Below, one piece after another: positions 60,200 through 63,444 of a DNA stretch of 64,000 nt. The notes under the pieces were generated by a model. That model ran no database searches and was not told where the DNA came from. It saw only the letters and a program-made list of their open reading frames with translations. Positions within the stretch are counted from its first letter, which is position 1. Every line of letters begins with the position of its first letter. Location: the NCBI RefSeq assembly GCF_900156415.1, contig NZ_FTNM01000002.1:372001-436000 (forward strand), read 5' to 3'. Position numbers and translations under genes: made by a program. Source of the stretch: Pontibacter lucknowensis (lineage in GTDB: Bacteria; Bacteroidota; Bacteroidia; Cytophagales; Hymenobacteraceae).

Positions 60200-62140
60200 A
60201 TGATCAACATCACTTTGCCAGACGGCTCTGTACGCCAGTATCAGAAAGGTGTAACTGGCCTCGAGATCGCCAGCAGCATTAGCGAGGGCCTTGCCCGCAA
60301 TGTTTTGGCCGTAAAGGTGAACGATTCCGTTTGGGATCTGTCTCGCCCCATTGAAGAAGATGCCAACGTGCAGCTGCTCACCTGGAACGACGATCTGGGC
60401 AAAAATACGTTCTGGCACTCTTCCGCCCACTTGTTGGCCGAAGCACTGGAAGAGCTATACCCAGGTATAAAATTCGGTATAGGTCCTCCTGTTGAGAACG
60501 GCTTTTACTATGACGTGGACCTGGGCGAGGGCAGAACCTTCTCGCAGGATGACTTCGCCAAAGTAGAGCAGAAAATGCTGGAACTGGCACGCGCCAAAAA
60601 TGAATACAAGCGTGAAGAAGTATCAAAAGCCGACGCCATTAAGTATTTCACTGAAAAAGGTGACCAGTACAAGCTCGATTTGATCAAGGACCTGGAAGAT
60701 GGTTCGATCACTTTTTACACCCAAGGCAAGTTCGTAGACCTTTGCCGCGGACCGCATATTCCGAACACTGGTTTCATCAAAGCGGCTAAGCTGATGAACG
60801 TAGCCGGTGCTTATTGGAGAGGCGATGAGAAAAGCAAGCAGCTGACTCGTATCTATGGTGTCACTTTTCCGAAGCAGAAAGAGCTGACAGAGTACCTGGA
60901 GCGCCTGGAGGAAGCCAAGAAGCGTGATCACCGTAAATTGGGTAAGGAGCTGGAGCTGTTCGCTTTCTCTGAAAAAGTAGGTATGGGCTTGCCGCTGTGG
61001 TTGCCGAAAGGTACTCTGCTGCGTGAGCGCCTCGAGCAGTTCATGCGTAAGGCACAGGTGAAAGCCGGTTACCAGCCGGTTGTTACCCCGCATATTGGTA
61101 GCAAAGAGCTGTACATTACTTCCGGTCACTACGAGAAGTATGGAGCCGACTCGTTCCAGCCGATCAAGACCCCGAATGAAGGGGAGGAGTTCTTCCTGAA
61201 GCCAATGAACTGTCCGCACCACTGTGAGATCTACAAGACACGTCCGCGCTCTTATAAGGAGTTGCCGGTACGTCTGGCAGAGTTCGGTACGGTATACCGT
61301 TACGAGCAAAGCGGCGAGCTGCACGGCCTAACCCGTGTTCGTGGCTTTACACAGGACGATGCGCACATCTTCTGCCGTCCGGACCAAGTGAAGGATGAGT
61401 TCAAAAAAGTAATTGACCTGGTGTTATACGTGTTCAATGCCCTTGGTTTTGAAGACTATACTGCTCAGATATCATTGCGTGATCCCGAGAACAAACAGAA
61501 GTATATAGGTGGTGACGAGGCTTGGGAAAAGGCAGAGAGCGCGATCATAGAGGCTGCTGAGGAGAAAGGGTTGCGCACTGTAACCGAACTGGGAGAGGCT
61601 GCGTTTTACGGACCAAAGCTCGACTTTATGGTACGCGACGCCTTGGGCCGCAAGTGGCAGCTTGGAACTATTCAGGTAGATTATCAGTTACCGGAACGCT
61701 TCCAATTGGAATACATTGGTGCTGATAACCAGAAACATCGCCCTGTTATGATCCACCGTGCGCCTTTCGGTTCATTGGAGCGTTTCGTGGCCGTTCTGAT
61801 CGAGCACTGCGGTGGTAACTTCCCGCTGTGGCTGAGCCCGGAGCAGTTTGCCATCCTGCCTATATCTGAAAAGTACCAGGACTTCGCACAGCAGGTATAT
61901 GACCGACTGCAGCAGGAAGATATCCGTGGCTTCGTAGACAACCGCGACGAGAAGATCGGGCGTAAGATCCGTGACGCAGAAGTGAGCAAAGTGCCTTATA
62001 TGCTGATCGTTGGTGAGAAAGAGCAGGAAAACGGAGCAGTCTCTGTTCGCAGGCACGGAGAAGGTGATCTTGGCACAATGACAGTGGAGGAGTTCATATC
62101 TAGCTTTCAGTCAAAAGTTGCTGAGATGCTGAACAATTAA
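60200..62140 (+). CDS. thrS: Threonine-tRNA ligase
   Basis: Class II aminoacyl-tRNA synthetase of 646 residues with the TGS domain (1-60), editing domain with [17 protein letters not shown] (about 70-220) and catalytic core. Motif 2-like [19 protein letters not shown] and the zinc-binding Cys in [11 protein letters not shown] are present. The anticodon-binding domain ends the protein ([16 protein letters not shown]). It begins the thrS-infC-rpmI-rplT order, a classic translation operon. Confidence 0.97.
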
Positions 62141-62169: not shown

Positions 62170-62184
62170 GTGCGATATTCGCAC
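62170..62184 (+). promoter_or_regulatory. Small hairpin in the thrS-infC spacer
   Basis: GTGCGA, loop TAT, TCGCAC: a perfect 6-bp stem between thrS and the infC Shine-Dalgarno. It could be part of an internal promoter (GATATTCGCACC resembles TAnnTTTGCACC) or an attenuation element. Confidence 0.35.
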
Positions 62185-62205: not shown

Positions 62206-62214
62206 TAAGGAGGT
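62206..62214 (+). promoter_or_regulatory. Perfect Shine-Dalgarno sequence of infC
   Basis: TAAGGAGGT is fully complementary to the 16S tail and lies 6 bases before the ATA start. Strong SDs are rare in this phylum; this one decides the start of infC. Confidence 0.85.
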
Positions 62215-62220
62215 AAAACT

Positions 62221-62784
62221 ATAGCTACGCCAAACAAGCGCTACATCCCACGCGGAAAAGTGGAAGAGCCATACAAAGTCAATGATAAAATAACTGCCAG
62301 AGAGGTCCGGTTAGTTGGTGACAATGTAGAGCAGGGGGTATTCTCGACCAGAGATGCTCAGAAAATAGCGAATGAGCAGAATCTTGACCTGGTTGAGATT
62401 TCGCCAACTGCTAATCCACCGGTATGCCGAATCATCGACTACTCGAAATTCAAGTACGAGCAGAAGAAGAAAACCCGTGAGATGAAAGCGAAGGCTCAGA
62501 AAGTTGTCATCAAGGAGATCCGTTTCGGTCCCAACACAGATGACCACGACTTTGAGTTCAAGCTGAAGCACGCCAAGTCCTTCCTTGAAAGCGGTTTCAA
62601 GATCAAGTCTTATGTACACTTCGTCGGTCGTACGATTGTGTTTAAGGAAAGAGGCGAGATCCTGTTGCTGAAGTTCGCACAGGCGCTTGAGGACATTGCC
62701 AAGGTGGAGCAGCTGCCTAAACTGGAAGGAAAGAGAATGTTTTTGATTCTTTCTCCGAAAGTGGCACCTCCTGCTAAAAAGTAA
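62221..62784 (+). CDS. infC: Translation initiation factor IF-3, predicted AUA start
   Basis: IF-3 keeps ribosomal subunits apart and rejects wrong start codons. The N-domain reads [20 protein letters not shown], then [12 protein letters not shown]; the C-domain has [20 protein letters not shown]. An ATG in the right place is missing. The ATA at 62221, 6 bases after a perfect Shine-Dalgarno, gives 187 residues starting with the usual ATPNKRY sequence. An in-frame GTG at 62260 would lose 13 conserved residues and has no SD. A non-AUG start fits the known autoregulation of infC, where E. coli uses AUU. Confidence 0.9.
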
Positions 62785-62807: not shown

Positions 62808-63002
62808 ATGCCAAAAGTTAAAACAAAATCTGGTGCAAAGAAGCGTTTTTCTTTGACAGGTACTGGCAAGATTAAGCGTAAGCACGCTTATAAAAGCCAC
62901 ATCCTGACCAAGAAGACGACTAAGCAGAAGCGTAACTTGACACACACTGGCCTTGTAAGCTCAGCTGACATGGACAGAGTGAAGCTGATGCTTCAAATCT
63001 AA
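62808..63002 (+). CDS. rpmI: 50S ribosomal protein L35
   Basis: A 64-residue basic protein, [20 protein letters not shown], with the family pattern [22 protein letters not shown]. It binds 23S rRNA in the large subunit. It lies 23 bases after infC with no Shine-Dalgarno. Confidence 0.97.
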
Positions 63003-63099: not shown

Positions 63100-63444
63100 A
63101 TGCCTAGATCGGTAAACGTTGTCGCAGCGCGACACAGAAGAAAAAAAATGATGAAAATGGCCAAAGGTTACTTTGGCCGTCGCAAGAATGTCTGGACAGT
63201 TGCGAAAAACGCAATTGAAAAAGGTTTGCTTTATGCTTACCGCGACAGAAAAGCGAAAAAGAGAGATTTCCGCGCCCTTTGGATCCAGCGTATCAACGCA
63301 GGTGCACGTGAGCATGGCATGTCTTACTCTCAGCTAATGGGCGCTTTGAAAAAGGCGAACATCGACCTGAACCGCAAAGTACTTGCTGACCTGGCGATGA
63401 ACCATCCGGAAGCTTTCAAGAGCATCGTTGACAAAGTAAAGTAA
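63100..63444 (+). CDS. rplT: 50S ribosomal protein L20
   Basis: A 114-residue protein beginning [20 protein letters not shown], with [19 protein letters not shown] and [21 protein letters not shown]20 is needed for early 50S assembly and in E. coli also represses its own operon by binding the leader. The 97-base spacer from rpmI shows no structure I can identify as that site. The operon ends at the terminator at 63465. Confidence 0.97.

Follow-up and report, generated by a model that had tools for sequence, protein, structure and literature searches.

The window analysed here, a 64,000-nucleotide stretch from an assembly of 4.47 Mb in 19 contigs, carries on its forward strand the gene order thrS-infC-rpmI-rplT. 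The upstream neighbour of infC is thrS (60200..62140; Pfam tRNA-synt_2b, HGTP_anticodon, tRNA_SAD and TGS); after a gap of 80 bases, infC (62221..62784) encodes translation initiation factor IF3 and is followed by rpmI (bL35; 62808..63002) and rplT (bL20; 63100..63444), both with ATG starts. When read from an ATA codon at 62221, the infC product comprises 187 amino acids, which match the Pfam families IF3_N (4.9e-31) and IF3_C (3.9e-31) and have relatives of known structure, 5me0 and 5lmn among them; among the best 80 of 559 loci, the best named match was an uncultured Pontibacter, at 100% identity.

A sequence-only reading of this DNA had placed the ATA six bases after a strong Shine-Dalgarno (SD), and this arrangement was confirmed. 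TAAGGAGGT occupies 62206-62214, and within it the 8-base SD AAGGAGGT (62207..62214) is complementary to the 16S tail CACCTCCTTTCT; the 6-base spacer AAAACT (62215..62220) leads to the ATA (62221..62223), all on the forward strand. Further upstream on the same strand lies a promoter-like -7 box, GATATTCGC (62174..62182), an imperfect match to the Bacteroidota consensus TAnnTTTG. It belongs to a GATATTYGC box that was found at most 140 nt upstream of infC in 55/55 Hymenobacteraceae, 36/87 order-sample and 8/150 class-sample loci; from its sequence the box is possibly the infC promoter, which would imply a short infC leader. A sigma-70 style promoter scan gave no match on the coding strand, and no Rfam RNA leader, such as the L20 leader, was matched within the window at gathering thresholds. 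The infC start region was less folded than its shuffles (z +1.74; 198 of 200 shuffles folded at least as well).

The start codon of infC

An in-frame TAA stop (62206..62208, forward strand) bars any infC start further upstream, and TAA stands immediately 5' of GGAGGT in 10 of 12 loci (L001-L012). The first ATG, GTG or TTG of the open frame is the GTG at 62260..62262 (forward strand), the mechanical ORF start, which corresponds to residue 14. Translation from this GTG, with the upstream SD and ATA being incidental, has in its favour that IF3_N begins after it, at residue 20 of the product; a start there would keep the Pfam domain, at the loss of 13 lineage-conserved residues. The claim of the sequence-only reading that the conserved N-terminus is recovered only from the ATA was therefore overstated, although the ATA itself is established by comparison with relatives.

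For this comparison, substitutions were scored against the window sequence in codons 2-13 and in the 36 bases before the ATA, using the 60 of 69 Hymenobacteraceae loci in which an AUH codon (AUU, AUC or AUA) precedes the domain anchor by exactly 19 codons, a set of 55 distinct sequences. Within codons 2-13, substitutions at codon positions 1, 2 and 3 numbered 166, 110 and 425 of 720, whereas the corresponding counts before the ATA were 398, 441 and 422 of 720. Synonymous and nonsynonymous changes in codons 2-13 stood at 246/197 in frame, compared with 74/387 and 29/447 when read in the two alternative frames; upstream of the ATA, the 36 bases gave 30 synonymous and 579 nonsynonymous changes. 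Judged by these substitutions, codons 2-13 evolve as coding sequence and the DNA before the ATA does not. At codon 14, GTG was present in 33 of the 55 Hymenobacteraceae loci and GTC, GTA or GTT in the other 22. With the GTG missing from these 22 relatives, coding substitution in the codons that precede it and no SD in the 18 bases before it, the GTG was rejected as the real start, and initiation there appears highly improbable.

The alignment of infC starts in relatives, which had been proposed as a check, was run; the codon at the position of 62221 was ATA in 11/11 Pontibacter loci and in 34/36 Hymenobacter loci, the remaining two having ATC. Nothing beyond the oddity of an ATA start speaks for a sequencing error of ATG, and because the ATA recurs throughout these loci we attach next to no credence to such an error. 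The non-AUG start that the sequence-only reading had put forward is thus supported both by the coding signature that begins at the ATA and by conservation; on this evidence the infC start is the ATA at 62221, one of the three codons (AUU, AUC and AUA) rejected by IF3.

The infC Shine-Dalgarno and its relation to the start codon

No 16S rRNA match was found in the genome's own assembly, so the anti-SD was read from Hymenobacteraceae relatives; among 31 genomes searched, 16 had a match and 10 16S loci were read, all ten of which carried the tail GGATCACCTCCTTTCT, a canonical anti-SD to which the infC SD is complementary. Against a 14-nt tail, pairing of the infC SD was calculated at -12.5 kcal/mol over 8 bases (ViennaRNA duplexfold). 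Chance occurrence was assessed in a 464-kb sample of the same genome, with 339 called gene starts and 339 mock windows. SD matches of at least 8 bases at legal spacing were present at 3/339 called starts and in 1/339 mock windows, and in 5/339 genes when starts anywhere within the first 50 codons were allowed; pairing of -12 kcal/mol or lower was reached at 3/339 called starts, in 3/339 mock windows and at 6/339 best-of-several starts. By itself, the SD motif has a frequency of roughly 1% in this genome, and it is conservation that raises it above chance. That the SD is rare in a single genome was considered as proof and set aside as insufficient, about 1% of called starts equalling it.

Several further SD matches were noted at G000:C8. 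At 133652-137299, the called ATG of an ORF whose N-terminus resembles that of a membrane protein is preceded, at a distance of five bases, by GAAAGGAGGTG, an SD match over 11 bases. Two adjacent xanthine-dehydrogenase-like ORFs and one radical-SAM moaA-like ORF (92729-96009 and 101628-102608; assigned by eye) have matches of 6-8 bases, and were perhaps acquired from SD-using bacteria.

Across 55 Hymenobacteraceae loci, legally spaced SD matches of 5 bases or more were found at infC in 51/55, compared with 0/54 at thrS, 0/55 at rpmI and 0/55 at rplT; by these counts the SD is, within the family, specific to infC among the four neighbouring genes. The suggestion that so strong an SD is unusual for the class was supported. 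Over all 165 long loci, which include 30 outgroup loci (30 of 195 genomes with a match), SDs were present at infC in 99/165, at thrS in 0/76, at rpmI in 9/161 and at rplT in 20/161, the SDs at rpmI and rplT making the contrast with infC weaker in this broader sample. Mock windows in the same comparison gave 3, 3, 0 and 7 of 211, as opposed to 162/211 for the real value, which alone was maximised over candidates.

The relation between start codon and SD was followed in 267 Bacteroidia infC loci from 79 families (177 from the class sample of 197 genomes, 193 of them with a match; 87 from the order sample of 146 genomes; 3 from the phylum sample). In 104/267 loci, no ATG, GTG or TTG occurred in the interval that opens at the upstream stop and closes five codons short of the IF3 anchor. 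Leaving out three loci without a callable start gave 264, called as 147 AUH, 116 NTG and 1 CTG; the NTG call for L388 (family f20) arose artefactually from the 150-base limit. Under an SD-aware call, an SD stood at working distance from 97/147 AUH starts versus 3/116 NTG starts; by picking among several in-frame codons this rule inflates the pairing of AUH with SD, yet it is equally open to NTG. Under an NTG-first rule, the SD was present at 39/102 AUH versus 3/159 NTG starts. Among the 92 loci with one candidate start, called by a rule blind to the SD, it was present at 27/53 AUH versus 1/39 NTG starts (Fisher 1.4e-7, kinship ignored); the latter figure had been 0/35 before 30 further genomes were added. 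In the one-candidate loci outside the class (phylum sample), 15/16 starts were AUC or AUA.

In the 107 loci that have a 6-base SD core, a test of reading frame found AUH 5-10 nt downstream at 80/214 in-frame positions and at 16/214 and 4/214 positions out of frame, and NTG at 0/642. On a 90-tip tree, parsimony counted 10 changes of start class and 13 of SD, and the Pagel test favoured dependent evolution of the two (LR 22.35, p 1.7e-4), in a fit that has one rate at its bound and on a tree built from short proteins with midpoint rooting. The 90 tips were drawn from 106 long loci, 16 of which lacked one of two required genes and were left out; of the best 80 of 559 loci, 19 were kept by hand. 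Together these comparisons indicate that the class of start codon and the SD are coupled across Bacteroidia.

The coupling has exceptions on both sides. The SD was absent from 50/147 AUH-called loci, including 5/5 sampled loci of family f52, and is therefore dispensable for an AUH start. Conversely, GGAGG or AAGGAG lay within 32 bases of the start in 9/116 NTG-called loci, 6 of which are ATG loci of family f106 (L350, L354, L356, L363, L371 and L380) with the SD core upstream beyond the spacing limit; this displaced core implies that loss of the SD alongside the codon is not general. In the order sample, called infC starts were ATG in 10/10 loci of f65, 8/9 of f97 and 9/9 of f106, and these families appear to be natural losses of the IF3-sensed codon. 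As a separate observation, the IF3 proteins of L139, L141, L163 and L282 have long Gly/Pro/Arg-rich N-terminal extensions before IF3_N. The sequences themselves thus show where infC starts, that an SD precedes this start, and that the two are conserved and coupled.

Proposed control of infC by its own product

IF3 is reported to discriminate against AUU, AUC and AUA, and not against AUG, GUG or UUG (PMC4611024), so that an IF3 gene which itself starts with AUH forms a feedback loop. Since the pair of AUA and SD recurs in many relatives, it probably acts as a self-limiting control switch and is not an error. The explanation that we favour, with good confidence, is an AUA-started infC under IF3 feedback, in which the SD compensates for the weak codon and is kept by selection. 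Translation of infC would begin from the AUA at 62221 with initiator tRNA; IF3 would destabilise initiation complexes on the AUA, so that rising IF3 lowers its own synthesis, as in E. coli; and the 8-base SD would hold the mRNA on the 30S subunit, enough IF3 being made despite the poor codon. The SD would then be under selection in a class that has largely discarded SDs, and would be rare at working distance from an ATG, GTG or TTG start. We infer that fMet is used in decoding, that the SD pairs on these ribosomes and that IF3 represses infC; autoregulation of infC by IF3 is likely here, and the SD most likely raises the poor codon to a useful rate.

The near-cognate start and its SD might instead be a relic of deep ancestry in which no feedback is left, the SD being kept only because the poor codon fails without it. 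The similar arrangement in E. coli and S. aureus (PMC13009471) is compatible with such inheritance, as are the ATG or TTG starts of some families; ATG is only one mutation away, however, and yet in some families, f40 and f48 among them, AUH is kept while AUA, AUU and AUC interchange. We therefore regard a relic as unlikely, and retain IF3 feedback as the better account.

The established precedent is the AUU-started infC of E. coli (Butler and Springer papers, cited in PMC5472188), whose regulation by IF3 is also reported in PMC10931766. That gene reads GGAGGAATAAGGT-ATT and starts three bases after thrS; it has in common with the present locus an adjoining thrS, the infC-rpmI-rplT order, an AUH start and an SD before this near-cognate codon, GGAGG in E. 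coli and AAGGAGGT here. The two differ in the codon (AUU as against AUA) and in the gap after thrS, which here is 80 bases with a promoter-like box; moreover, feedback is established in E. coli and only predicted here, in a class reported to hide its anti-SD. In S. aureus, infC likewise starts with AUA, an extended SD being predicted in front of it, and retapamulin-enriched ribosome density is reported at that AUA; S. aureus uses extended SDs generally, however, and Bacteroidia do not (PMC13009471). Streptomyces infC and sigR are reported to share a noncanonical start under IF3 control, with ATC and GTC, respectively, so that codon and lineage differ from those here (PMC5472188). The suggestion that this autoregulation is built from different parts than that of E. 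coli did not hold, given GGAGG with AUU in E. coli, AUA with a predicted SD in S. aureus (PMC13009471) and ATC in Streptomyces (PMC5472188). The parts are those of known systems; as far as was searched, what is new is that Bacteroidia keep them despite a hidden anti-SD.

A hidden anti-SD and the retention of the infC Shine-Dalgarno

Bacteroidia ribosomes are reported not to recognise SDs, their anti-SD being buried by bS21, bS18 and bS6 (PMC9976891), which counts against a role for the SD at infC. The closest comparison within the class is with rpsU and rpsR, translation-apparatus genes that, like infC, are among the few with a strong SD in a class poor in SDs (PMC9976891). In the present genome, rpsR (L194) carries AGGAGGT 9 bases before its ATG, and no SD match was found at the start of rpsU (L193), which is also ATG, unlike the ATA of infC; Tyr54 of bS21, the residue mutated in the published study (PMC9976891), is present.

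A buried anti-SD, Tyr54 and the SD of rpsR together raise the alternative that the infC SD reads the exposure state of the anti-SD. In such a double-input switch, the SD would be read for the most part by subunits whose anti-SD has been freed, those lacking bS18 or bS21, and IF3 synthesis would follow both the level of IF3 and 30S subunits that are immature or damaged. F. johnsoniae rpsU is reported to be controlled likewise, Cytophagales rpsR genes to have SDs (PMC9976891), and the SD of rpsR in this genome, alongside an rpsU without one, fits the same scheme. The calculated pairing of infC falls within the range reported for rpsR (-7 to -14), is less stable than that reported for rpsU (-14 to -21), where SDs are longer and stronger, and does not reach the -13 kcal/mol below which pairing would be of rpsU type, although the published values come from another program and the margin is uncertain (PMC9976891). 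Against a double input, the product of infC is IF3, which lies outside the occluding pocket of bS21, bS18 and bS6, whereas the products of rpsU and rpsR bury the anti-SD (PMC9976891); furthermore, presence of the SD follows the class of start codon, a pattern that suggests an SD making up for a weak codon. We hold the double-input switch to be a tentative alternative, somewhat doubtful on balance. That infC is an overlooked client of Bacteroidia anti-SD gating other than a ribosomal protein gene, with anti-SD exposure and IF3 as its two feedback inputs, is likewise conceivable rather than expected; if true, lineages with ATG, GTG or TTG mostly gave up the SD at working distance too.

Compensating SD changes have been reported for rpsU in lineages with an altered anti-SD (PMC8710568), and McNutt 2023 is described as having screened ribosomal protein genes across Bacteroidota and whole genomes in Flavobacteriales (PMC9976891), screens in which an AUA-started infC could have been missed. 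The literature searched was not found to mention an SD at infC in Bacteroidota, and novelty is claimed only within that scope. Gene callers limited to ATG, GTG and TTG may misplace infC starts in Bacteroidota; the infC SD was called together with an AUH start in 35/69 families.

Bacteroidia are a standard example of bacteria that do without SDs though the anti-SD is kept, and in the literature examined, its retention is explained mainly through genes for ribosomal proteins, foremost among them rpsU. With infC, whose conserved SD is tied to a codon rejected by IF3, a second kind of gene enters this question. Relatives with and without each part, the AUH start and the SD, constitute a ready natural experiment, and make the reason why Bacteroidia keep their anti-SD testable at another kind of gene.
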